The notes under the pieces: model-generated
The model's input: the letters and a program-made list of their open reading frames with translations, nothing else
Told to the model about the DNA's origin: nothing
The model's database searches: none
Made by a program: the position numbers and the translations under genes
Shown here: one piece after another, positions 37,162 to 49,734 of the stretch
Layout: every line of letters starts with the position of its first letter
Numbering within the stretch: position 1 is the stretch's first letter
NCBI GenBank assembly: GCA_027323885.1
Contig: DAHVZT010000054.1
Location: 1 to 64,000 of the forward strand
Direction: 5' to 3'
Source of the DNA: Acidobacteriaceae bacterium
GTDB taxonomy: Bacteria; Acidobacteriota; Terriglobia; Terriglobales; Acidobacteriaceae
Length of the DNA stretch: 64,000 bases

Positions 37162-38721
37162 ATGAGAATGAGCAGGCGCAGTCTGTTGTCCGGGGCCGTT
37201 GTTACGGGGGCCGCAACCTGTCTCGCTGCGCGTACCGGCTTCATTCTCGCGCTGGCGACGCCGCCGCGTCCCGATCTGGCGAAGGACCCGAGGCGTCCGC
37301 AGTTTCATTTGCTCCCGGCAGCCAACTGGATGAATGATCCCAATGCACCGATTTATTGGAACGGCAGCTACCACATGTTCTACCAATACAATCCCAACGG
37401 CGCGTTCTGGGGCGACATGCACTGGGCACACGCTGTAAGTCCGGACATGGTGCATTGGACACATCTTCCTTTGGCTCTATCGCCAACGCCGGGAGGTCCG
37501 GACGCAGGCGGATGCTTCTCGGGGACGGCCGTTGTACAAGACGGCGTGGTCACCGCGCTCTATACCGGTGTTGTATCTGTTCCGGAGGAGCAAGCGACAT
37601 TGCGCGACGGCCAACATTCTTTTCAAGAGTCTCAATGTCTGGCCACATCTGTGGATCCGCAACTGCGATCATGGTCCAAGCTGCCCAAACCTGTGATTGC
37701 CGCACCGCCCGCTGGCATGAAAGTCACTGGGTTCAGAGATCCTTCTCCGTGGCGTTCTGGAGACTGGTGGTATCTGGCGGTCGGATCCGGCATTCCCAAG
37801 AAAGGCGGAGCCGTTCTTCTCTATCGATCCAGGGATCTCCGCAACTGGGAATATCTGCACGTTCTGGCGAGCGGTCCAGGGAAACATATCGAGACTGCCA
37901 ACCAGGTCGATTCCGGCGATATGTGGGAGTGCCCGGATTTTTTCCTACTGGACGGCAAGCATGTGTTGATTTATTCGACTGCGGGAAAGTGCTGCTGGGA
38001 AAGCGGGGAACTGGACCCTAAGGAAATGGTGTTCCATCCCACGCTCAGCGGAATCCTTGATCATGGGTCCTTCTACGCTCCTAAGACCCAGCTCGACAAG
38101 TCGGGACAGCGCATTCTTTGGGGCTGGATTCCGGAGACGCGTCCGTTGGAGGAGTATCGCGCAGCAGGCTGGGCCGGAATGATGTCGTTGCCCCGCGTGC
38201 TCAACGTAAACAGCACAGGCAGCTTGTCCATGCGCGTCAATCCTGACGTTGGAATTCTCCGGAGGAACGAACAGGTTTTCGTACTGGGCAACGATGAGGG
38301 AAAGAACCGGAGAGCAATCGATCGCCTGCGATTGCATGGGTGTTGCGGCGAAATCATTTGCTCGTTTGCAGTCGGCCAGGAGCCATTTGGCTTGACTCAG
38401 CTGTTTGCGCCAGCAAGCGCGGAGAAAAACGAACTGATTTCCATTCAGTCCGATGCGGCCCATCCTGGCCATGTGTTGGTCGACGGCAAACCGATTCCGA
38501 TTCATGTTGATCGTCATGGCCAACTTCATCTGCAAATGTACGTCGATGGATCCGTGATTGAGCTGATGGTGAATCAGCAGGCAGCATACACGAAGAGGTT
38601 CTATTATCCCGGACCGAGCTCCCCTGAGATCGCGCTGCGCGTTGAGGGCAAAACGGCAAACATCGCCAAGTTGGCTCTGTGGCAATTCGCGCCTATTTCG
38701 CCGAACCGGTTGACCACGTAA
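37162..38721 (+). CDS. Exported GH32 glycoside hydrolase (fructan/sucrose hydrolase)
   Basis: The 519-residue enzyme has a Tat-type N-terminus (SRRSLLSGAVVTGAA). The GH32 catalytic triad regions are visible: NWMNDPNAP with the nucleophile Asp59, FRDPSPW with the transition-state stabiliser, and WECPDFF with the acid/base Glu. FYQYNPNGAFWGDMHWAHA and a C-terminal beta-sandwich complete the family architecture. Members cleave beta-fructosidic bonds in sucrose, inulin or levan; which of these is not decidable here. Export by the folded-protein route suggests action in the periplasm or outside. No transporter or regulator for it is adjacent. Confidence 0.88.
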   Translation: MRMSRRSLLSGAVVTGAATCLAARTGFILALATPPRPDLAKDPRRPQFHLLPAANWMNDPNAPIYWNGSYHMFYQYNPNGAFWGDMHWAHAVSPDMVHWTHLPLALSPTPGGPDAGGCFSGTAVVQDGVVTALYTGVVSVPEEQATLRDGQHSFQESQCLATSVDPQLRSWSKLPKPVIAAPPAGMKVTGFRDPSPWRSGDWWYLAVGSGIPKKGGAVLLYRSRDLRNWEYLHVLASGPGKHIETANQVDSGDMWECPDFFLLDGKHVLIYSTAGKCCWESGELDPKEMVFHPTLSGILDHGSFYAPKTQLDKSGQRILWGWIPETRPLEEYRAAGWAGMMSLPRVLNVNSTGSLSMRVNPDVGILRRNEQVFVLGNDEGKNRRAIDRLRLHGCCGEIICSFAVGQEPFGLTQLFAPASAEKNELISIQSDAAHPGHVLVDGKPIPIHVDRHGQLHLQMYVDGSVIELMVNQQAAYTKRFYYPGPSSPEIALRVEGKTANIAKLALWQFAPISPNRLTT

Positions 38722-38754: not shown

Positions 38755-39441
38755 TCAAGACTGAAGATGAATCCCGCATTCCAGCTTTTTTCCGCCCCAG
38801 CGGCCTGCGCGTGGATTGTTCGGGTCGGCAGATGGCTGCGTACACGGTTCGCAACCGATACTGCGATAGCCACGGTCATAGAGCGGGAGATGCGGGATCG
38901 CATGCGCCGTCATGTAGTCCCAGACCTGCTGCCAGTTCCACTCCGCCAGGGGACTGATTTTTTGCAGAACTTTTCCTCCGGGCAATGTATGTGCTTCAAC
39001 TTTTTTCAGGTTGGCCCGGGTTGGGGATTGTTCCCTGCGTAATCCGGTAAACCAGATGTCATAGTGCTCAAGAGAACGGAACAGCGGGGCGACTTTCCGC
39101 GTCTGGCAACATTGCGTGGGTTCGACAAGATAAAGCTTGCCAAAAGAGCCTTCATGCTGCGAGACCGTAGTTTCCGGGAGTATGTTTTTCAGATTGATCG
39201 ACCATTCGGCCACCATCCGGTCCCGATAGGCGTATGTTTCTGCGAAATGGTAACCCGTGTCGAGAAAAATCACAGGAATTTCCGGTGCCCGCCGCCGCAG
39301 CAGATGCAGCACGACCATGTCTTCCGCCTGCAGGCTGCTGGTCAGGCAAGCAGGAGCGCCGCTAGACTGGGAAAAAACTTCGTCCACAACTGCTTCGGCA
39401 CTGTACGGCTCGAACTGCTCCGCAATCTTCTGAAGATTCAT
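38755..39441 (-). CDS. cysH: Adenylyl-sulfate (APS) reductase, CysH family
   Basis: The 228-residue enzyme carries the PAPS-reductase fold (LTSSLQAEDMVVLHLL, FLDTGYHFAET). It also carries the four extra cysteines that bind a [4Fe-4S] cluster in APS-specific reductases: C111-C112 in TQCCQTRKV, and C197 and C200 in GCEPC. The catalytic Cys222 is in ECGIH. It reduces APS to sulfite with thioredoxin. The APS rather than PAPS specificity agrees with the lack of a functional APS kinase nearby. Its ATG overlaps the cysN stop (ATGA-type coupling), so it is the last gene of cysD-cysN-cysH. Confidence 0.92.
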   Translation of the reverse strand: MNLQKIAEQFEPYSAEAVVDEVFSQSSGAPACLTSSLQAEDMVVLHLLRRRAPEIPVIFLDTGYHFAETYAYRDRMVAEWSINLKNILPETTVSQHEGSFGKLYLVEPTQCCQTRKVAPLFRSLEHYDIWFTGLRREQSPTRANLKKVEAHTLPGGKVLQKISPLAEWNWQQVWDYMTAHAIPHLPLYDRGYRSIGCEPCTQPSADPNNPRAGRWGGKKLECGIHLQS

Positions 39442-41111
39442 CAGCGTTCCTCACCTTCGCCTGCATACAGAATTTTTTCTAAAGCTTCTGCCAGCTTTTC
39501 GGCCGCAGTGGGGCTTTCGTCGACTTCGATCCAGCGGTCGCGTCCAAGAAATTGCTGAATTTCATATTCGATGTTCGGAGTGAGAGCATCCCGTGAGCAC
39601 ACAGCAACCAGGCCAGCTTGCTGCGCCACGCGAACCGCACTCGGAATCCCGGGACCTGTAATGTGAGGATCGTCCAAGGAGATATAAGGAATGTGGCGAT
39701 CCCGCAGTTCGGCCATGACGAGAGCGCTCCACCGGCTCGATGCTGGCGTCAGCACGAGCGGGTAATTATGAACGGCTCGGTTCCGCGACTCGCTGCCCAG
39801 GTCACGCTCCAGCATGACAGCGCCGACAGTGGCGTTGGTTACCGCGTCGATCAATATCATGCTGCCCAATGCACGATTCACGGCGTAGCGATCGAACAGC
39901 AGCGGGAGGTTGGAACTGAAATCCACCGAACCGATGTCGTTCATCTCCAACTGTGCAGCGGGGAGTTCTGCGAGTGTATGCATGTCAACCCGGGACCGGA
40001 TGGCGGTCGCTTGCACACGCACTGTGCGGGTTGTATGTTTTGCGATGTAGATGCGGCCCTTCTGCAGTGGCTCTTCATGAAGCCAGATCACCTTGCCGCC
40101 AAAGGTGCGTGACAAATGGGGCGGTGTTTCAGGAGAGACCAGCATGTCACCACGACTCAGATCGATTTCATCTTCCAACTGAATCGTTACCGGCATAGGG
40201 GCGAATGCTTCTGTCAGCTTTCCATCGTAGGTCACGATAGAAGCTACGCGTGTGCGTATTCCTGATGGAAGGGCCAGAACTTCATCGCCGGTTCGCAGAA
40301 CACCACGCGCGACCTGCCCGGCAAAGCCGCGAAAACTTGCGTCCGGCCGCAGGACCATCTGAACAGGAAATCGCAAATGGGCCTGATCGCCATCCTCGCC
40401 GTGGGAAAGTCTGTCCAGTGGAACAGTCTCCAGATGCTCGAGCAACGTGGGGCCGTCATACCACAGCGTGCGAGCGCTGCGTGTGACGATGTTATCCCCC
40501 TTCAATGCGCTGATCGGAATGATTTGCACGCTGCGCAACCCAAGCTGGTTGGCCAATACGTGGAAATCGGCGCTGATTTTCCGGTAGGTGGAGGGATCAT
40601 AGTCCACCGTGTCCATTTTGTTGATCGCGACAACCACATGCGGAATACCCAGCAACGCTGCAATCGAGGCGTGGCGGCGCGATTGCGCCAGCAGACCTTT
40701 GCCCGCATCCACCAACACGATTGCCAGGTCCGCAGTTGACGCGCCGGTAGCCATATTGCGCGTGTACTGCTCATGCCCCGGCGTGTCGGCAATGATGAAC
40801 TTTCTGCGTGATGTGGAGAAGTATCGATAGGCCACATCGATCGTGATGCCTTGTTCTCGTTCTGCCCGCAGCCCGTCGGTCAGGAGAGAAAAGTCGATTG
40901 GCCCTGCTGCGCGATTCACCTTGCTCTGCCGGATGGAAGCCAACTGATCTTCGTATACAGTCTTCGTGTCGTGCAGGAGCCGCCCGATCAGCGTCGATTT
41001 TCCGTCATCCACGCTGCCTGCCGTGGTGAAGCGAAGCATCTCACGCTCAAGATGTTCATCCAGGAAGTTCTGGAATGTGGCAGAAGTTCCTGAGCCGGTG
41101 GTAGTCGCCAT
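39441..41111 (-). CDS. cysN: Sulfate adenylyltransferase large subunit (GTPase) with CysC-like degenerate tail
   Basis: The 556-residue protein starts at ATG 41111 (TTTAGSVDDGKSTLIGRLL G1 motif, DTPGHEQYTRNM G3, INKMD G4, then two beta-barrel domains). With CysD it makes APS from sulfate and ATP, driven by GTP hydrolysis. The last about 105 residues go beyond plain CysN. They look like a collapsed APS-kinase domain: the expected P-loop is replaced by LTPASSRWSALVM, while a later VAQQAGLVAVCSRDAL segment resembles CysC. The frame is open upstream to 41291, but that part is cysD antisense-frame noise. It overlaps cysD by one base (TAATG). Confidence 0.92.
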   Translation of the reverse strand: MATTTGSGTSATFQNFLDEHLEREMLRFTTAGSVDDGKSTLIGRLLHDTKTVYEDQLASIRQSKVNRAAGPIDFSLLTDGLRAEREQGITIDVAYRYFSTSRRKFIIADTPGHEQYTRNMATGASTADLAIVLVDAGKGLLAQSRRHASIAALLGIPHVVVAINKMDTVDYDPSTYRKISADFHVLANQLGLRSVQIIPISALKGDNIVTRSARTLWYDGPTLLEHLETVPLDRLSHGEDGDQAHLRFPVQMVLRPDASFRGFAGQVARGVLRTGDEVLALPSGIRTRVASIVTYDGKLTEAFAPMPVTIQLEDEIDLSRGDMLVSPETPPHLSRTFGGKVIWLHEEPLQKGRIYIAKHTTRTVRVQATAIRSRVDMHTLAELPAAQLEMNDIGSVDFSSNLPLLFDRYAVNRALGSMILIDAVTNATVGAVMLERDLGSESRNRAVHNYPLVLTPASSRWSALVMAELRDRHIPYISLDDPHITGPGIPSAVRVAQQAGLVAVCSRDALTPNIEYEIQQFLGRDRWIEVDESPTAAEKLAEALEKILYAGEGEER

Positions 41112-42061
41112 TAAAAATATCCCTCTCTCTTCTTCACTTCCATGGATCCTTCTTCGTCGTGATCGATCACGCGATTTTCCCGTTCGGAACGCCGGAACGC
41201 GATCAGTTCCTGAATGATTTTCGGCACTGTATCGGCGTCGGAGCGAATAGCGCCTGTGCATGGCATGCAGCCCAAAGACCGCATGCGGCACTGGATGCGC
41301 TGGATGGATTCGCCGGGCAAAAGGGGAGTCTCGTCGTATTTCAGAATGATCGACTGGCCTCGCACAACTGCCTCGCGCTCTTGCGCAAGATAGAGCGGCA
41401 CCAATGGAATCTGTTCGGCATAGATGTAGAGCCAGATGTCGAGTTCAGTCCAGTTCGACAGCGGAAATACGCGTATGCTTTCTCCTTTGCGCAGGCGGGA
41501 ATTGTAGAGGTTCCACAACTCCGGACGCTGATTTTTAGGGTCCCACTGCCCGGCCGGATCTCGAAAGGAATAGATGCGTTCTTTGGCACGCGACTTTTCT
41601 TCATCGCGGCGAGCGCCCCCGAACGCGGCATTGAACCCACCGGATTCCAGCGCATCCAGCAAAGCGCGGGTCTTCAACAATCCACAGCAGTTTTGTGTAC
41701 CCAGCGCGAAGGGGTTCGCACCCTCATCGAGTGCTTTCCGGTTCTGATGCACGATCAGCTTTGCTCCTATGTCGCGCGCGAAGGCGTCACGGAAAGCAAT
41801 CATCTCGGGAAATTTGTAACTGGTGTCGATATGCAGCAGCGGAAAAGGAATCTTGCCTGGATAAAACGCCTTTTGCGCGAGACGCATCAGCACTGAGGAG
41901 TCTTTTCCGATGGAATAGAGCATCACCGGGTTGGAAAACTCCGCCACAGCTTCCCGAAAGATAAAAATGCTCTCTGCCTCCAACGCCTGAAGATGATTCA
42001 GTACGCGTCGCGATATTAGCGGGGGTTGGCAGCTTGAGTCGACAGAGATTGCTGTATTCAT
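41111..42061 (-). CDS. cysD: Sulfate adenylyltransferase small subunit
   Basis: The 316-residue ATP-PPase subunit shows [16 protein letters not shown] (PP-loop), [30 protein letters not shown] and [15 protein letters not shown]. It activates sulfate to APS together with CysN. ATG 42061 is chosen over ATG 42094 because AGGAG precedes it and the upstream ATG lies inside the T-tract of the leader terminator. It is the first structural gene of the minus-strand operon and sits directly behind a Cys/Met-rich leader peptide and an intrinsic terminator. Confidence 0.93.
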
Positions 42062-42078: not shown

Positions 42079-42117
42079 AAAAATAAAAACCCACGGACTG
42101 GATTTCCAGTGCGTGGG
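42079..42117 (-). terminator. Leader terminator (attenuator) upstream of cysD
   Basis: On the minus strand CCCACGCACTGG, loop AAAT and CCAGTCCGTGGG form an 11-pair stem with one mismatch, followed by TTTTTATTTTT. The stem starts 33 nt after the leader-peptide stop. The cysD ribosome binding site lies immediately after the T-tract. The 5' arm can alternatively pair with 42163-42172 inside the leader ORF. Confidence 0.85.
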
Positions 42118-42150
42118 CTGATGTGAATGTGACCTTAGGTTAGTGAAGGG

Positions 42151-42234
42151 TCAATCAGGCTTCCCACGCTGGCTGCGCATACACATGTCGAGCGACATGC
42201 AACACATGCAACGCATTTGTCCGCGCAGGGCCAT
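42151..42234 (-). CDS. Cys/Met-rich leader peptide upstream of cysD (27 aa)
   Basis: A 27-codon ORF begins at ATG 42234. Its core reads RCMCCMSLDMCMRS: four Cys and six Met including the start. A promoter (42247-42275) predicts transcription start near 42240, so the 5' UTR is about 6 nt and translation is near-leaderless. Codons 21-24 (CCAGCGTGGG, 42163-42172) copy the terminator's 3' arm and can form an antiterminator. A ribosome stalled at the Cys codons would leave this segment free and permit cysD-cysN-cysH transcription. It shares the Met-Cys-Cys-Met core with the divergent leader. No peptide function other than regulation is proposed. Confidence 0.75.
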   Translation of the reverse strand: MALRGQMRCMCCMSLDMCMRSQRGKPD

Positions 42235-42246
42235 AGGAATTCATTG

Positions 42247-42275
42247 AATATACGGGTTAGTTCCGAAGAATGCAA
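42247..42275 (-). promoter_or_regulatory. Promoter for the cysD leader
   Basis: On the minus strand TTGCAT (-35, 42270-42275), a 17-bp spacer and TATATT (-10, 42247-42252) form a good sigma-70-type promoter. It predicts a start near 42240, just before the leader ATG. Confidence 0.65.
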
Positions 42276-42324
42276 ATTTCTTTCGCGAATCGAGAGTATT
42301 GCGCCAACTAAATTGCCGAATGAA

Positions 42325-42351
42325 TTGACTTTTTGTAAGCGAGCCGATAAC
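42325..42351 (+). promoter_or_regulatory. Putative promoter for the sulfite reductase leader
   Basis: TTGACT (42325-42330), a 15-bp spacer and GATAAC (42346-42351) give a plausible if short-spaced promoter. The predicted start near 42358 would make the leader ORF at 42361 almost leaderless. The 49 bp between the two divergent -35 elements (42276-42324) hold no recognised operator. Confidence 0.45.
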
Positions 42352-42360
42352 GTACGACTT

Positions 42361-42438
42361 ATGAAGTTCCACACAATGACGTCGAGCATGTGTTGCATGT
42401 GTATGTGTTCCATGCGACTGCGACGGTCTTTTGTGTGA
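42361..42438 (+). CDS. Cys/Met-rich leader peptide upstream of sulfite reductase (25 aa)
   Basis: A 25-codon ORF begins at ATG 42361. Its core reads SSMCCMCMCSMRLRR: four Cys codons between 42391 and 42408 and six Met including the start. No Shine-Dalgarno is visible, in line with near-leaderless initiation. The segment CTGCGACGG (42418-42426), 10 nt after the last Cys codon, can pair (8 of 9 positions) with CCGCCGCGG (42477-42485), which overlaps the 5' arm of the downstream terminator. Ribosome stalling at Cys codons would therefore favour read-through into the sulfite reductase gene. A longer in-frame extension to TTG 42217 crosses the promoter and is not favoured. Confidence 0.75.
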   Translation: MKFHTMTSSMCCMCMCSMRLRRSFV

Positions 42439-42470
42439 GCCAGCGACTTAAGTAACAACTCAGCACACCC

Positions 42471-42516
42471 AAGCACCCGCCGCGGATTCTCTGCAGCGGG
42501 TGCTTTTTTATTTTTT
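42471..42516 (+). terminator. Leader terminator (attenuator) upstream of sulfite reductase
   Basis: A perfect 10-bp stem (AAGCACCCGC with GCGGGTGCTT) with a 15-nt loop is followed by TTTTTTATTTTTT. It begins 32 nt after the leader stop and ends 18 nt before the structural start. It mirrors the terminator in front of cysD. Confidence 0.87.
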
Positions 42517-42534
42517 GTAAATGCGAGGAGCGCG

Positions 42535-44214
42535 ATGAGCGAAGCAATAGCATCACCCCCTTTGAAAGAAACCAAAACCCAGCGGACAGAACGTCTCAAG
42601 CTCGAAAAGAATCCCTGGGAGGCATTCAATGAAGTGCGTGAGTTTGCGCTGTCCGGTCGCGGCGCCGTATTGCCAGCGTGGGCGAGCCTGTACTTCAAGT
42701 GGTGGGGCATCTACACCCAGGGAGACGGTGTGGGCGCAATCGGCGGCTCGGGCGGGGAAGGAAAGATGTCGGAATATTTTATGATCCGAATCGCCATTCC
42801 CAACGGCATTCTTACTTCCGCGCAATTGCGCGTAATCGCCCGGCTCGCGAAGCAGTACGGACGCAATCTTGCGGACATCACGGTGCGCCAGGCCATCCAA
42901 CTGCACTGGCTTACCATCGAGTCGCTGCCGGAAATCGTCGACGAGCTGGCCGCGGTTGGTCTTTCTCCCAAGGGTGCATGCGGAGACGTAGTTCGCAATG
43001 TTACAGGCTGCCCGCTCGCTGGCTTGGCTGCCGATGAGATCATCGATGCTTCGCCGCTGGCTCTCAAAATTGTTGGCGCTCTTGCGGGTAACTCGGCGTT
43101 CTACAATCTTCCTCGCAAGTTCAAGATCTCCGTCACCGGCTGTTCGGACTGGTGTTCGTATCCGGAGATCAATGACATTGGACTGACCGCGGTCCAACGT
43201 GGACCGGAGATTGGGTACATCGTACGCGTTGGGGGAGGGTTGTCTGCGGACCCGCACCTTGCTGTCAAGCTGGATGCATTTGTTCCTCCCGAGCAGGCCG
43301 TGCCTGTTGTGCGCACGATCGCAGAAATTTTTCGCGATCAAAAAGGACTGCGTGAGAGCCGGGATCGGGCCAGGCTCAAACACCTTTTCCTGCGCGAGGG
43401 GTGGACGGCGCAATCTTTCCTTTCGGAAATCGAGGCGCGGTTGCATCATCGCTTCGATTCTGCTCCGGAAGAGAAGTTACCGCGCGACCTGCACCGCGAC
43501 CACGTCGGAGTCTATGCGCAAAAAGAACGCGGTCTGCACTATGTCGGCGCGTCTGTATTGCGCGGCAGGCTATCCGGCGAGCAGCTCGAAGCGGCTGCCG
43601 ATCTTGCGGAGCGCTTCGGCTCTGGAGATTTGCGCACCACGGTCATGCAAAACCTTCTCTTTGTGAACATCGCAGCTTCGAAGTCTGCCGAACTGGTGCG
43701 GGAATTGAGAGCGATCGATTTACCCGTAGACGGAACCTCCTTCTGGAGAGGTACGGTGGCCTGCACTGGAACAGAGTTCTGCAAACTGGCTATTACGGAA
43801 ACGAAGGGGTTTGGCCGCTGGCTGGTTGAGGAGATGGAGACGCGCCTTCCACAGTTCGATCAGCAGTTAAAACTCAACATTACGGGATGCCCCAATAGCT
43901 GCGGACAGTATTGGATCGCGGACATTGGGATTGAGGGCAAGAAGATCAAGCACCAGGGCAAGCTGGTGGACGCGTTCCAATTTGCCGTAGGCGGTGCTGT
44001 TGGAGAGTTCGCAAACATTGCCCGTCCGTTGGGGTATCGTTGCCTTTCCACCGATGTTCCAGATGCGATTGAACGCCTGTTACGTAGTTATCTCAACAAC
44101 CGATCCGGGAACGAGAACCTTCGCGCCTATTTCTCAAGACATTCCGACGAGGAATTGCGCGGCCAGCTTTCCGGAGCTTTTATTGCGCAGGAACAGAACG
44201 CGGTGACCGTATGA
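42535..44214 (+). CDS. Ferredoxin-dependent sulfite reductase (nitrite/sulfite reductase family)
   Basis: The 559-residue protein has the duplicated ferrite-reductase half domains and the NSR signature cysteines in ACTGTEFCKLAITET and TGCPNSCGQYWIADIG, which bind the [4Fe-4S]-sirohaem centre. TGCSDWCSYPEINDIG is the corresponding decayed site of the first repeat. The family includes nitrite reductases, but the neighbours (sulfate activation, APS reductase, sirohaem synthase) point to six-electron reduction of sulfite to sulfide. GAGGAG precedes ATG 42535. Expression is probably governed by the leader attenuator. The next gene overlaps by 4 bp. Confidence 0.9.
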   Translation: MSEAIASPPLKETKTQRTERLKLEKNPWEAFNEVREFALSGRGAVLPAWASLYFKWWGIYTQGDGVGAIGGSGGEGKMSEYFMIRIAIPNGILTSAQLRVIARLAKQYGRNLADITVRQAIQLHWLTIESLPEIVDELAAVGLSPKGACGDVVRNVTGCPLAGLAADEIIDASPLALKIVGALAGNSAFYNLPRKFKISVTGCSDWCSYPEINDIGLTAVQRGPEIGYIVRVGGGLSADPHLAVKLDAFVPPEQAVPVVRTIAEIFRDQKGLRESRDRARLKHLFLREGWTAQSFLSEIEARLHHRFDSAPEEKLPRDLHRDHVGVYAQKERGLHYVGASVLRGRLSGEQLEAAADLAERFGSGDLRTTVMQNLLFVNIAASKSAELVRELRAIDLPVDGTSFWRGTVACTGTEFCKLAITETKGFGRWLVEEMETRLPQFDQQLKLNITGCPNSCGQYWIADIGIEGKKIKHQGKLVDAFQFAVGGAVGEFANIARPLGYRCLSTDVPDAIERLLRSYLNNRSGNENLRAYFSRHSDEELRGQLSGAFIAQEQNAVTV

Positions 44215-44849
44215 GCTTATTTCCAGCTTTCCTGAAACTCTCTGGACGCGCATGCCTGGTGATCGGCGCGGGACAGGTTGCCCTTTCCAAGGTTGACAGC
44301 CTGATGCGTGCCGGGGCGGACGTGCATGTTGTTTCGCCCAAAGCCCTGCCGGAAATTGAAGAACTGGCACGCGAGGGAGCACTGCGCTGGACCCGGAGAA
44401 AGTATGAAGTGGGAGATGTTCCCGGCTCATTTCTTGTGATCGCCGCGACGGACAATGTAGAGGTGAACCACTGCGTTTATCGGGATGCCGCGAGTCGCGG
44501 GATTCTTTGCAATGTTGTCGATGATCCGCCGTACTGCGATTTCTATTTTCCTTCTGTGGTGGAGCGAGGCCCTTTACAGATTGCAGTTTCTACTGAGGGA
44601 GAAAGCCCTGCCGTCGCGCAGCGCATGCGCCGCGAGCTGGACGCGGCATTGCCACCGGACCTAGGTCCATGGGTTCAGGAGATGGGCCGCCTTCGGCGTG
44701 AGGTTCGGACCGAGCATCCCCCATGCGAAAATCGCACCAGGCTTCTGCATACCCTGGCCCAACGGCCGTTGTGTGAACTGGAGCATTGCCCTACACGTCA
44801 GTTCGCGCGTAAAGCCAATGACGTGGCGTGTTCAGCGAGCGCAGTGTAA
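44211..44849 (+). CDS. Precorrin-2 dehydrogenase / sirohydrochlorin ferrochelatase (sirohaem synthase N-terminal type)
   Basis: The 212-residue protein resembles the CysG N-terminal module or Met8p: the NAD-binding motif VIGAGQVALSKVDSLM, VIAATDNVEVNHCVY, CNVVDDPPYCDFYFPS, and STEGESPAVAQRMRRE. It oxidises precorrin-2 and inserts iron to make sirohaem, the cofactor of the gene just upstream, with which it shares an ATGA overlap. The methyltransferase half (SUMT) is absent and must be encoded elsewhere. The C-terminal 30 residues are unusually Cys/Arg-rich. The following 210 bp contain no gene I can support. Confidence 0.87.
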   Translation: MSLFPAFLKLSGRACLVIGAGQVALSKVDSLMRAGADVHVVSPKALPEIEELAREGALRWTRRKYEVGDVPGSFLVIAATDNVEVNHCVYRDAASRGILCNVVDDPPYCDFYFPSVVERGPLQIAVSTEGESPAVAQRMRRELDAALPPDLGPWVQEMGRLRREVRTEHPPCENRTRLLHTLAQRPLCELEHCPTRQFARKANDVACSASAV

Positions 44850-45059: not shown

Positions 45060-46112
45060 ATGAGAGCCGTGCCCTCACATGCCACGCTGACAGATGTCGC
45101 ACGAGAGGCGCGTGTTGGGACAACTACGGTATCGCGCGTCATCAATGGCGGTGAGCGAGTCAGCCCCGCAACTCTGGAGCGGGTCCAAAAGGTAATTCAG
45201 AGGCTTGGCTATCAGCCAAATCACGCTGCGCGAATCTTGAAAGGGGAAAGCACGAGAACGCTTGGCCTGATCGTTCCAAGTGTTGCTGACTCCTTCTTTT
45301 CTACCTGTGCGGAGGCGGCGCAAAAAGTCTCACGATTGCATCATTTCCTTTTGATCGTAACTTCCTCGAATAATCACGGTCCTACGGAGTTGGAGAATCT
45401 CAACGTTCTGATTCAGCACCGAGTGGACGGTGTGCTGATCGCTCCGGCTGTTTCCCACAACAAAGAACTGGTCGAGGTTCTCAAGAGGACTGCAATCCCC
45501 GTTGTCTCGTTCGATCGCCCAATTTATAACTCGTCAGTTCCCAGCGTGGTCAGCAATAACTACAAAGGCGCCTGGGAGGCGACTCGCCATCTGCTTTCGC
45601 ATGGCTACAAGCGTATTATCTGTTTTGGGTTTAAAGGAGAAGATTCTCTTTACACGATCAAGGAGCGGATTCGCGGCTATCGGCAGGCGATAAAAGAGGC
45701 GAAGCTTACTGCTGAAGTCGATATGTCGATCTCGGATTGCGAGTCTGCGGAATTGGCGGTCAGGACCCATCTCCAGGGGCCAAACCCTCCGGATGCTATT
45801 TTCGCCCTCAAAAATCTGGCTACCATTTATACCTGCGAAGCCTTGCAGAAGATGGATATTCCTGTCCCTGCGACAATCGCTCTAATTGGATTCGATGATT
45901 TTGAGCTCGCTTCAACCCTGAATCCATCCATTACAGTTGTGAAACAGCAGATTGAGCAGATTGGCGAAGTTGCTACAACATTGCTGTTTGAGCAGGTGAA
46001 GGCCAGGAAGAAATCGGGCGTACGAGGGTCGCAGAACGAACGCAACTCCGAGACAACGAGACTGGAAACGGAATTGATTCTGCGTAATTCATGCGGTTGC
46101 GGAAGACGCTGA
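45060..46112 (+). CDS. LacI-family transcriptional regulator
   Basis: The 350-residue protein has the LacI HTH and hinge (TLTDVAREARVGTTTVSRVINGG, then NHAARILKG). A periplasmic-binding-like sensor domain follows, with LGLIVPSVADSFF, VDGVLIAP, VVSFDRP and IALIGFDDFELASTLNPSITVV. It ends in a Cys pair (NSCGCGRR). Operators of this family are palindromes centred on CG. Such a site (46202-46217) lies between this gene and the first mannosidase, with related sites before the TonB receptor and the second mannosidase. A mannose- or mannoside-derived effector is inferred. Confidence 0.9.
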   Translation: MRAVPSHATLTDVAREARVGTTTVSRVINGGERVSPATLERVQKVIQRLGYQPNHAARILKGESTRTLGLIVPSVADSFFSTCAEAAQKVSRLHHFLLIVTSSNNHGPTELENLNVLIQHRVDGVLIAPAVSHNKELVEVLKRTAIPVVSFDRPIYNSSVPSVVSNNYKGAWEATRHLLSHGYKRIICFGFKGEDSLYTIKERIRGYRQAIKEAKLTAEVDMSISDCESAELAVRTHLQGPNPPDAIFALKNLATIYTCEALQKMDIPVPATIALIGFDDFELASTLNPSITVVKQQIEQIGEVATTLLFEQVKARKKSGVRGSQNERNSETTRLETELILRNSCGCGRR

Positions 46113-46181: not shown

Positions 46182-46201
46182 TTAGCAGCATTTGAGCCCT
46201 A

Positions 46202-46217
46202 ATGGAAACGTTTCCAT
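46202..46217 (+). promoter_or_regulatory. LacI-type operator before the first alpha-mannosidase
   Basis: ATGGAAACGTTTCCAT is a perfect 16-bp palindrome centred on CG, the hallmark of LacI/GalR-family operators. It lies 20 bp downstream of the -10 element, at about +14 to +29, where a bound repressor would block elongation. Confidence 0.75.
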
Positions 46218-46389
46218 GAGCCGCTTGTCCTGGGATCATTGTGCTGGCCAGAAATCGAAACTGTGTGCTCCTGCTTCCAAGGTGAGAATCAAGAGTCACA
46301 GAAACCAACCAGCCGCAACTAGAAACTATTCTGACCCGCCAGTTTCACGTAATTGGATTGTGACAAACTTAGTTCCTGTGGAGTGTCCT

Positions 46390-49300
46390 ATGAATCTCAA
46401 CCGTAAGTCCTTGCGAACAGTAATCCTGATAGCGAGCGCATTTTGTTTCTCGGCGCAAGCAGGAACTCTCGGCGCGCAAACCGGAACCCCCAAGCCCTAC
46501 GTTTTTTCCGGTCAGGCAAAGGCGGCGCTCGATCGGCTCGCTTTGTTCCAGGCCATCCCGGCGGACACCTGGCAGTATCACGCCGGAGACATAGCGCACG
46601 GAGAACGTCCAGACCTGGACACGAGCGGGTGGCAGACGGTTCATCTTCCTTTTACCGCACCGCGCGGAGCTGTTTGGTTCCGGCGCACCGTGGAAGTTCC
46701 CAAGACGCTCCACGGTTATGACATTACGGGCGCGCAGATCTGGTTCCAGATGAATATCGATGCAAATGGTTCGGTGCCCGTCATCCTGTATTACAACGGG
46801 CAGAGGGTTGCGCTGGGCGAGGATCTGGAAAAACAGCCGCTTTTCAGCGATGCAAAGCCTGGGGACAAGATTCTGGTCGCTGTGAAAATGCTGGTGACCC
46901 AGGATACAAAGCGCTTTCGCAGGGCCGATCTTCCTGTGGTTTTTTCCGGCAACCGGCCCAATCCTGAAGACCTGCGCAAGGAATTAATCTCCGCGGCGGA
47001 TTTGTTGCCCGCAATTACCACCGATCCCAACTCGCTGGCTTCGCAGGAAAAAACGCTGGACCACGCCGCAGCGTCGATTAACTTGTCGGCCCTGGATGCC
47101 GGGAACCAGGCGGGATTTGATGCATCCTTGCAGCAGGCGCAATCGAAGCTGGAATCCCTTCGTCCGATTCTGCAGAAATACAGCGTGCACATGACAGGAA
47201 ACGCGCATATCGATGCGGCGTGGCTGTGGCCATGGACGGAGACGGTGGACGTGGTGAAACGCACGTTTTCCTCTGCCTTACAGTTGATGAACGAATATCC
47301 GGATTACACCTATTCCCAGTCGGCGGCGCAGTACTACGAATGGATGCAGCAAAAATATCCCAGCATTTTTCAGCAAATCCAGCAGCGTGTGAAGGAAGGC
47401 CGGTGGGAAATCGTTGGGGGCATGTGGGTCGAGCCGGATCTGAACCTGCCCGACGGTGAGTCCCAGGTGCGGCAGATTCTTGTGGGCAAGCGTTATTTTC
47501 AGAAGAACTTTGGCGTCGATGTGCGCGTCGGCTGGAATCCGGATTCATTCGGTTATAACTGGCAGTTGCCGCAGATCTACAAAAAGTCCGGCATCGACTA
47601 TTTCGTTACCCAGAAGATGACGTGGAACGACACGAACAAGCTGCCGCTCAAGCTCTTCTGGTGGCAGTCTCCTGATGGCAGTCGCGTACTGACCTACTTT
47701 CCGCATGATTACGTGAACCAGATTGAGCCAGCGCGTATGGCCCGCGATCTGGCAACAGCCATTGAGATGAACCCCGGCCAAAACGAGATGATGCACCTTT
47801 ATGGCATTGGCGACCACGGAGGCGGACCCACGCGCGACATGCTCGACAGCGGCGTGCGCTGGATGGAGCCGAACAAGGTTTTCCCGCATCTGGAATTCGG
47901 GGTGTCTCAGAATTTCTTCAATACCATGGCCCAGCGGATCGAGAAGAGCGGCAGCCCGGTATGGAATTACGCAACGCTGGCCGCCGGCAATACGGCCCTT
48001 CCGCCACCACCGGAGGGAAAGATCAGTCTGCCCGTCTGGAACGATGAGCTGTACCTGGAATTCCATCGCGGCGTGTACACCACCCAGGCAAAACATAAAT
48101 GGAATTTACGGCACAGCAGCGAATGGCTACTGAACGCCGAAAAATATTCTTCTCTGGCCTGGCTGGGCGGCGCGGCCTATCCCGGCGATAAGCTCACGGA
48201 AGGCTGGAAGCTTGTTTCCTTCAACGGCTTCCACGACTTGGCCGCGGGCTCTGGGATTGGCGTCATCTATAAGGACGCGCAAAAACAATTCGACGTAGTC
48301 CATTGGACCGCAAACGATGCAACGCGGCGGGCCCTGCGCGACATTGACAGCCAGATTGACACAACAGGTAAAGGAGACGCGAAAACGGGCGTGCCGATCA
48401 TCGTATGGAATACGATGAGCTGGGGACGCACGGATGTGGTGAAAGTACAAGTTCAGATGCCGCAGCCGACCCCCAACGGCATTTCGGTTCTGGATGCCAA
48501 TGGCAATGTAGTTCCCGCGCAGGTCCTTTCGCACGATCCGGCTTCCAATAGCTACCATCTCCTGTTGGAACCCAGGCAGGTTCCCTCCGTCGGTTATACC
48601 GTGCTGCACGCAATTGCGGGCAAGCGTTCTTTGCAAACGGATCTGAAGACCAGCGGCGTGACCATGGAAAACGAGTTTCTCCGCGTTGTCGTGAATCCTA
48701 CGAACGGTTGTATCGATAGCCTGTATGACAAGCAAGCGCATTTTGAAAGCATCGCGGCTGGACAATGCGGCAACATGTTGCAGGCATTTGTGGATACACC
48801 CAAGGAGTATGACGCGTGGAACATCAATCCCAATTTTGCGGAGCACGGCACGAACCTGACCATGGCGGATAGCGTTCAGCTCGTCGAACACGGTCCAGTC
48901 CGTAGTATCGTTCGGGTTACCCGGCATTGGGACAAATCCACCTTCATCCAGAACATCGTGCTGTATGCGGGAATGCAGCGCGTGGACGTGGTGAATGATG
49001 TGGACTGGCATGAGACGCACATCCTGCTTAAGGCGGCGTTTCCGCTGGCGGCAACTGCCCCGAAGGCAACCTTCGAAATTCCGTATGGAACGATTGAGCG
49101 GCCGACGACACGCAATAATTCCATCGAGAAGGCTAAGTTCGAAGTTCCGGCGCAGCGCTGGGCCGATCTGGGCGATGGCCAGCATGGGTTCAGCCTCATC
49201 AACGATTCCAAGTACGGCTACGATGTGAAGGGGAATGTATTGCGCTTGTCGCTGCTGCGCTCTCCAGTGTGGCCCGATCCGGATGCCGATCGCGGTCCTC

Positions 49301-49734
49301 AGCACTTTCGTTATTCGCTGTATCCACACGCCGGGACCTGGAAGCAAGCCGATACGGTCCTGCATGGGTACGCTTTCAACTACAGGCTGCACGCGATGCA
49401 GACGCAGCAGCATGATGGCGAACTGCCCTCAACGCACTCGTTTGTGACCGTTCATCCCAGCAACCTGGTGCTGACCGCAATGAAGAAGAGCGAAGACGGA
49501 GACTCACTCATCCTGCGCTTTTACGAGTGGGCCGGAAGGAAAACAGACGCGAGAATCCAGGTTCCTGCTGGTGCGAGCGCGGCGGTCACAACCAACCTGA
49601 TGGAGCACGCCAATGGACTTCCGGTTCCGGTTGCGGGCAACCAGATGACTGTGCCAGTGGGCCCATATTCCATCAATACTGTACGCGTGGAGTACGGCAA
49701 TCGCGGGGCCGGTTTTTGGCAGGCACAAAAATAA
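46390..49734 (+). CDS. Secreted alpha-mannosidase, GH38 family (paralogue 1)
   Basis: The 1,114-residue enzyme starts at ATG 46390, with GGAG 6 nt upstream. It has a signal peptide (TVILIASAFCFSAQA) and a jelly-roll-like segment, then the GH38 domain. Zinc ligands lie in GNAHIDAAWLWPWTE and in FNGFHDLAAGSGIG; the nucleophile Asp is in GWNPDSFGYNWQLPQ. C-terminal beta domains include YGTIERPTTRNN. GH38 enzymes release mannose from alpha-mannosides such as N-glycans or mannan fragments. The in-frame extension to 46192 runs through the operator and is not coding. A long leader of about 200 nt separates promoter and start. Confidence 0.9.
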   Translation: MNLNRKSLRTVILIASAFCFSAQAGTLGAQTGTPKPYVFSGQAKAALDRLALFQAIPADTWQYHAGDIAHGERPDLDTSGWQTVHLPFTAPRGAVWFRRTVEVPKTLHGYDITGAQIWFQMNIDANGSVPVILYYNGQRVALGEDLEKQPLFSDAKPGDKILVAVKMLVTQDTKRFRRADLPVVFSGNRPNPEDLRKELISAADLLPAITTDPNSLASQEKTLDHAAASINLSALDAGNQAGFDASLQQAQSKLESLRPILQKYSVHMTGNAHIDAAWLWPWTETVDVVKRTFSSALQLMNEYPDYTYSQSAAQYYEWMQQKYPSIFQQIQQRVKEGRWEIVGGMWVEPDLNLPDGESQVRQILVGKRYFQKNFGVDVRVGWNPDSFGYNWQLPQIYKKSGIDYFVTQKMTWNDTNKLPLKLFWWQSPDGSRVLTYFPHDYVNQIEPARMARDLATAIEMNPGQNEMMHLYGIGDHGGGPTRDMLDSGVRWMEPNKVFPHLEFGVSQNFFNTMAQRIEKSGSPVWNYATLAAGNTALPPPPEGKISLPVWNDELYLEFHRGVYTTQAKHKWNLRHSSEWLLNAEKYSSLAWLGGAAYPGDKLTEGWKLVSFNGFHDLAAGSGIGVIYKDAQKQFDVVHWTANDATRRALRDIDSQIDTTGKGDAKTGVPIIVWNTMSWGRTDVVKVQVQMPQPTPNGISVLDANGNVVPAQVLSHDPASNSYHLLLEPRQVPSVGYTVLHAIAGKRSLQTDLKTSGVTMENEFLRVVVNPTNGCIDSLYDKQAHFESIAAGQCGNMLQAFVDTPKEYDAWNINPNFAEHGTNLTMADSVQLVEHGPVRSIVRVTRHWDKSTFIQNIVLYAGMQRVDVVNDVDWHETHILLKAAFPLAATAPKATFEIPYGTIERPTTRNNSIEKAKFEVPAQRWADLGDGQHGFSLINDSKYGYDVKGNVLRLSLLRSPVWPDPDADRGPQHFRYSLYPHAGTWKQADTVLHGYAFNYRLHAMQTQQHDGELPSTHSFVTVHPSNLVLTAMKKSEDGDSLILRFYEWAGRKTDARIQVPAGASAAVTTNLMEHANGLPVPVAGNQMTVPVGPYSINTVRVEYGNRGAGFWQAQK

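Follow-up and report, generated by a model that had tools for sequence, protein, structure and literature searches.

Classical ribosome-mediated attenuators are represented by the trp, his, phe, and thr leaders of Proteobacteria and by the trp leaders of Actinobacteria. Leaders rich in cysteine codons have been described in mycobacteria, where poly-Cys leader ORFs precede cys operons without conserved terminator hairpins (Seliverstov 2005, PMC1262725) and where, in M. smegmatis, leaderless polycysteine ORFs are cysteine-responsive attenuators (Canestrari 2020, as cited in PMC9094748 and PMC9031893). In Rhodobacterales, the uORFC-8-2 motif found upstream of cysS combines a tandem Cys pair with an intrinsic terminator, and cysteine attenuation has been proposed for it (PMC8632094). 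A survey from 2010 listed almost no predicted attenuators with an assigned function in Acidobacteria, a group abundant in soil (PMC2965389), and our search of non-subscription literature turned up no account of a cysteine attenuator from Acidobacteriota, which is not proof of novelty.

According to our analysis of a 64,000-nt stretch of DNA from a soil acidobacterium of the family Acidobacteriaceae (the window), the operons cysD-cysN-cysH and sir-cysG, which diverge from a 473-nt intergenic region with cysD on the minus strand and sir on the plus strand, are very probably each under their own cysteine-specific ribosome-mediated attenuator of the classical trp/his type. Like the classical attenuators, the two leaders have runs of control codons in a leader ORF and mutually exclusive antiterminator and terminator structures, with the 5' arm of the terminator taking part in both; unlike them, they involve cysteine, sulfate assimilation genes, a predicted leaderless start of the ORF, and the phylum Acidobacteriota. 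The clustered codons for the end product, the intrinsic terminator, and the antiterminator blocked by the ribosome that define the classical cases were all found here in silico, the window sir leader taken alone being weak. With the mycobacterial polycysteine ORFs, the family's leaders share contiguous Cys codons, a leaderless start as judged by promoter position, and a place upstream of cysteine or sulfur genes, whereas most of the sir leaders described here have intrinsic terminators and antiterminators and the mycobacterial leaders are thought to act translationally or through Rho; the likeness is one of layout, the sequences being too short to decide on common descent. The uORFC-8-2 motif is similar in its short ORF with tandem Cys codons and its intrinsic terminator, but it controls a cysteinyl-tRNA synthetase in Alphaproteobacteria and carries its Cys codons inside a stem, whereas the genes concerned here are cysD and sir.

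Both strands show one order of parts (Table 1): the promoter is followed by a short ORF containing four Cys codons, and after a further 33 to 34 nt come a hairpin and its U-run, the ribosome binding site, and finally the structural gene. The earlier note on this DNA had described the same layout on both strands, and all the parts that it listed are present in the sequence, including the four Cys and six Met codons and the MCCM core in both ORFs. The gap between stop codon and terminator, which it gave as a near-equal 32 to 33 nt, measures 34 nt on the sir side and 33 nt on the cysD side, and the intrinsic terminators that it proposed are both strong hairpins, equaled by none of their shuffles. 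Its placement of an attenuator at the head of each sulfate assimilation arm in an acidobacterium is likewise supported. Its near-leaderless ORFs hold for the sir side, where 7 nt separate the -10 box from the ATG, but not for the cysD side, where the distance is 12 nt and the transcript likely has a short 5' leader, as read from the promoter position; the same 12-nt gap is found in the nearest relatives, L113 and L114. The leader peptides closest to that of the window cysD are MTRPAQMRCICCMSLDMCMCMCACGRRGEPS and MTRLAQMRCLCCMSPDMCMCMCACGRRGEPS. Absent from the earlier note are the antiterminators, which we found on each strand as a pairing of the 3' part of the ORF with the 5' arm of the terminator and which round off the case for attenuation.

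Table 1. Features of the divergent cysD/sir locus, in window coordinates
Feature	Position	Strand	Description
sir promoter	42325..42353	+	TTGACT 42325-42330, 17 nt, TAACGT 42348-42353; ends 7 nt before leader ATG
sir leader ORF, MKFHTMTSSMCCMCMCSMRLRRSFV	42361..42438	+	4 Cys (TGT TGC. TGT. TGT), 6 Met; Cys-cluster ORF conserved before sir in the family
sir segment 2 (3' end of ORF and stop codon)	42420..42439	+	TGTGTGAG at 42432-42439
sir segment 3 (antiterminator 3' side and terminator 5' arm)	42459..42485	+	From footprint folding
sir terminator	42473..42515	+	Hairpin 42473-42503 and U-rich tail; -26.1 kcal/mol, z -6.75; no dinucleotide shuffle as good
sir ribosome binding site	42525..42530	+	GAGGAG, from sequence
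sir	42535..44214	+	Ferredoxin-type nitrite/sulfite reductase family protein; PF01077, PF03460
cysG/met8 (siroheme synthase-like)	44211..44849	+	Second gene of the sir operon; PF13241, PF14824
cysD promoter	42247..42275	-	TTGCAT 42275-42270, 17 nt, TATATT 42252-42247; ends 12 nt before leader ATG; scan gave an overlapping site
cysD leader ORF, MALRGQMRCMCCMSLDMCMRSQRGKPD	42151..42234	-	4 Cys, 6 Met
cysD segment 2	42149..42169	-	GCGUGGG 42169-42163, CUGAU 42158-42154, UGACC 42153-42149; complementary to segment 3
cysD segment 3	42111..42134	-	GGUCA 42134-42130, AUCAG 42122-42118, CCCACGC 42117-42111 (terminator 5' arm)
cysD terminator	42080..42117	-	Hairpin 42117-42090, U-rich tail 42089-42080; -20.9 kcal/mol, z -6.18; no dinucleotide shuffle as good
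cysD (sulfate adenylyltransferase small subunit)	41111..42061	-	PF01507; homologous family search; ATG at 42061 after AGGAG
cysN-like GTPase (sulfate adenylyltransferase large subunit)	39441..41225	-	PF00009, PF22594
cysH-like adenylylsulfate/PAPS reductase	38755..39441	-	PF01507

The cysG/met8-like gene adjoins sir in relatives as well and is thus a conserved neighbor. Beyond the two operons, the window holds a LacI-type regulator at 45060-46112, identified through Pfam, and two large plus-strand ORFs that by eye resemble a GH32-type glycosidase (37162-38721, with a WMNDPN motif) and an alpha-mannosidase (46192-49734). An alternative ORF on the cysD side, 42244-42155 on the minus strand (MNSYGPARTNALHVLHVARHVYAQPAWEA), was rejected, as it contains no Cys and L113 and L114 lack its ATG. 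A simple consensus scan of the window recovered neither terminator, its stems being ungapped, and, of the promoters, only the one on the cysD side.

In the mechanism that we propose, RNA polymerase would start at the leader AUG or a few nucleotides before it, and a ribosome would begin the short ORF at once. With plentiful Cys-tRNA, the ribosome would reach the stop codon and cover segment 2, so that the terminator (3:4) would form and transcription would end ahead of the structural gene. Under a shortage of charged Cys-tRNA, the ribosome would instead stall on the UGU/UGC cluster and leave segment 2 free to pair with segment 3, including the 5' arm of the terminator, and the operon would be transcribed. 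The operons would thus probably be switched on when cysteine runs short; we infer the response to Cys-tRNA, the translation of the ORFs, and the transcript start sites from sequence. The parts of the switch, their competing pairings, the conserved Cys codons, the terminators, and the promoter spacing were observed, as follows.

When the Cys codons are occupied by a ribosome and the transcript ends at the terminator 5' arm, both window leaders fold into the antiterminator (-18.6 for sir and -23.4 for cysD), whereas with the ribosome on the stop codon and the same transcript end the antiterminator is gone (-2.7 and -1.3, respectively). Once the transcript is complete, the terminator is the preferred fold whatever the ribosome state, so that control must be kinetic. 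On the cysD side, the duplex of segments 2 and 3 reaches -25.4 kcal/mol, with a z of -3.6 against shuffles. On the sir side, with the 5' part of the ORF blocked by a ribosome, the partner of segment 2 is 42459-42467 (CTCA.G.CACA) and, to a weaker degree, the terminator 5' arm; the former pairing, UGUGUGAG/CUCAgCACA, is present but no better than in shuffled controls (z -0.7), and the sir leaders of close relatives give antiterminator z values of -1.5 to -3.3. Across the sir leaders, the pairing of segment 2 with the region ending in the terminator 5' arm has a mean z of -2.28 against mononucleotide shuffles, with 70% of the leaders below -1.65, and in 89% segment 2 pairs with at least 4 nt of that arm. 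An alignment of 28 sir leaders of the CCRCC type contains terminator pairs in 93% of its cells, against 29 to 43% in slid controls, and antiterminator pairs in 87%, against 20 to 50%. Covarying stems, one of the marks by which the earlier note proposed to judge the relatives, were detected in the same alignment, with seven antiterminator pairs changed on both sides, a number reached by 2 of 500 shuffles; this covariation is modest because the sequences are conserved. When each segment 2 was offered segment 3 partners from other genomes, its own partner ranked only in the best 19% (median), probably due to sequence shared among relatives. Pairing of segments 1 and 2 into a protector hairpin is possible in both window leaders when no ribosome is present, where it is clear; in most relatives it is not, a z below -1.65 being reached in 32% of the sir leaders.

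For the wider comparison, upstream regions of sir and cysD were gathered from related genomes, yielding 99 distinct regions for sir and 37 for cysD. A Cys-cluster ORF was defined as having no more than 62 codons, three or more Cys within a stretch of 8 codons, and an adjacent Cys pair; the background was formed by ORFs of at least 200 codons in 2.4 Mb of the relative G017, with leader ORFs there limited to at most 40 codons. Such ORFs precede sir in 68 of 99 regions and cysD in 29 of 37, against 35 of 2,082 background ORFs, an enrichment of about 40-fold, which bears out the conservation of Cys codons in relatives on which the earlier note had made its proposal depend. Some of the sir regions without a hit are not real losses, as sir lies within a cysD-led operon in L006, L008, and L076, and in L022, L037, and L047 the leader either lies at a greater distance upstream or carries its Cys codons in alternation. 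Typical sir leader peptides are MQGRPCCRRCTPLRAHR and MALCPMPVMCCACCCALRRTCG, and the one nearest to the window is MKFHTMTAICCMCMCPMRLRRSYV. TGY triplets in the sir leaders occur 349 times in frame 0, against 151 and 48 times in the other frames.

A terminator was recognized in 71 of the 78 sir leaders collected, at a median of 34 nt after the stop codon (28 to 43 nt for the 10th to 90th percentiles). About half of the cysD leaders, 14 of 30, have no recognizable terminator. Cys-rich ORFs without a U-run terminator are seen in the cysD leaders of L011, L017, L027, L077, and L139, which are of the SCCCLSxIFDGC type, and of L134 and L138, of the MRACCQCRNCC type. The promoters of the sir leaders keep to few positions: in 55 of the 78 leaders, the end of a -10 box (TANNNT) is separated from the ATG by 6 nt (35 cases) or 7 nt (20 cases), in 59 that of a -35 box (TTGNNN) by 29 nt (33 cases) or 30 nt (26 cases), and other positions of either box are near zero. 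These positions correspond to a 17-nt spacer and a start site at the AUG, so that the sir leader ORFs, and with them the transcripts, are probably leaderless; the window sir promoter fits this arrangement.

The leaders also differ from their genes in the choice of Cys codons. UGU and UGC occur 246 and 103 times in the sir leaders and 132 and 1,168 times in the sir genes, and 123 and 43 times in the cysD leaders against 13 and 165 times in the cysD genes. UGU thus makes up 70% of leader Cys codons versus 10% in the sir genes, and its share exceeds that of the sir gene downstream in 78 of 78 leaders; because the sequences are related, a formal P value overstates this evidence, though the direction is uniform. 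Plausibly, a shortage of Cys-tRNA is felt by the ribosome more readily at UGU, since this codon is read by wobble; part of the bias could also come from constraints on the nucleotides, such as pairing.

The earlier note had taken the two leaders for a mirror-image pair and had judged their near-identical spacing hard to explain by chance. When the intergenic region was shuffled 20,000 times with its dinucleotides preserved, ORFs holding four or more Cys, two of them adjacent, appeared on both strands in only 0.095% of cases, terminators not yet being required, and to this extent the arrangement does go beyond chance. The equal spacing, instead, belongs to the leader design of the whole family, whose median stop-to-hairpin distance of 34 nt accounts for it, and is no sign of pairing. 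Nor is the pair conserved as a designed unit: L003, whose sir is 88% identical to that of the window, keeps the sir leader with no cysD nearby, and in many genomes sir and cysD lie apart, each with its own leader. Therefore, we regard the pair as two independent attenuators side by side. The divergent layout recurs at least once, in L045, where cysH-cysN-cysD on the minus strand and sir-cysG on the plus strand have two Cys leaders, that of cysD without a recognizable terminator. A model built from the CCRCC sir leaders (R1) matches sir leaders in other genera and also some cysD leaders (G097, G052, and G039). In G097, the sir and cysD leaders can be aligned with each other (score 62, shuffle maximum 26), so that leaders have been copied between sir and cysD there; the two window leaders have only a 15-nt core in common (score 30, shuffle maximum 25).

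Different readings of the Cys ORFs were weighed against cysteine-specific attenuation. One is that the ORF acts by translational or Rho-dependent attenuation, as proposed for mycobacteria, with the hairpins being secondary. The actinobacterial cys leaders without terminators (PMC1262725) speak for it, as do the family's cysD leaders that have a Cys ORF and no U-run terminator (14 of 30), where another read-out must exist, perhaps a translational or Rho-dependent one. For the window, however, we deem this unlikely, given a strong intrinsic terminator at a fixed distance and an antiterminator that overlaps its 5' arm, both there and in 71 of 78 sir leaders. The earlier note had itself favored mixed control codons, that is, a sensor of cysteine and methionine together. 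Both window ORFs do contain six Met codons and the MCCM core, some of which are kept in L002, L003, L083, L113, and L114, but the MRCMCCM of the cysD leader becomes MRCICCM and MRCLCCM in relatives. Across the family, the Cys positions persist while Met is lost or replaced, as in the CCRCC and CCACC cores, and only 22 of 78 sir leaders have at least two internal Met. Mixed sensing thus does not stand up to the comparison, and we hold it to be distinctly improbable.

That the repeated ATGTGTTGCATGT is a protein binding site, an operator common to both divergent promoters with the ORFs as a by-product, could be argued from the sequence of this exact 13-mer, which contains inverted repeats and is present in the window in just two exact copies, one on either strand of this region, with one further copy, at one mismatch, in the cysD leader (chance mean 0.13). 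Yet conservation of the 13-mer ends with the closest relatives; what the family keeps instead are the in-frame Cys codons, the length of the ORF, the distance to the terminator, and the antiterminator pairing, which leaves an operator with very little probability. Hardly any credence remains for a riboswitch (SAM, T-box, or other) or for chance short ORFs before ordinary terminators. Riboswitches are typically leader regions with terminators, but no Rfam family reaches its cutoff in the window, where the riboswitch and T-box covariance models gave no match at curated score and none that was meaningful at E values up to 1; the sole weak match of the region is to a plastid 3' UTR (E 0.27). As for chance, 392 Cys-rich short ORFs were counted in 2.4 Mb of G017 at places other than sir and cysD, and not one combines a promoter with a terminator in a suitable position.

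A third Cys attenuator was accordingly not found in that 2.4 Mb outside sir and cysD, and the candidates with Cys runs that we inspected in G017 looked like stretches within longer coding frames. When the same genome was scanned for other amino acids, we were able to identify a His leader, MWIHRHHRHHHHHVTSVSANPYGLK (G017:C1:1400209, minus strand), followed by a strong terminator and then by hisI-hisG-hisD, which by its sequence is a classical His attenuator in Acidobacteriaceae. It comes from a related organism of the same family and has the same order of ORF, terminator, and operon as the cysteine leaders, differing in its histidine codons and histidine operon. Its recovery serves as a positive control for the scan and suggests that attenuation is used for another pathway in the family.

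Some further loci were noted. The R1 model strongly matches G083:C27:17404-17533 on the minus strand (E 3.7e-17), a place outside both sir and cysD. Neither a sulfate permease nor cysK-type enzymes nor a sulfate-binding protein accounts for this match. In another family of the same order (f2), candidate short ORFs that look leaderless and encode CCC through runs of TGT, such as MSTLIRLLCCC and MVRTSSHMCRCCC, are located at G101:C24:57954, G101:C39:115489, G103:C51:30885, and G117:C221:3009. In yet another family of the phylum, an ORF at G212:C3:43090-43125, starting with MKKTMCSMCCCC, lies about 2.5 kb upstream of a sir homologue on the same strand and is possibly an operon-head Cys leader outside the order.

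We tentatively suggest, with somewhat more doubt than confidence, that leaderless poly-Cys attenuation is widespread in the sulfate assimilation of Acidobacteriota, with the rare UGU codon as the sensor of starvation and with interchangeable read-outs, namely, intrinsic terminators, which most sir leaders and part of the cysD leaders have, and terminator-free leaders before other cysD genes. The UGU bias of the leaders amounts to a testable claim on which codon best reports a shortage of cysteine, and terminator-bearing and terminator-free leaders within one family offer natural material on how an attenuator changes its read-out. If the reading is correct, it would provide a cysteine attenuator with a complete terminator/antiterminator switch, combined with leaderless initiation, which should load the ribosome as the RNA emerges, and it would assign cysteine control to sulfate assimilation across the Acidobacteriaceae.
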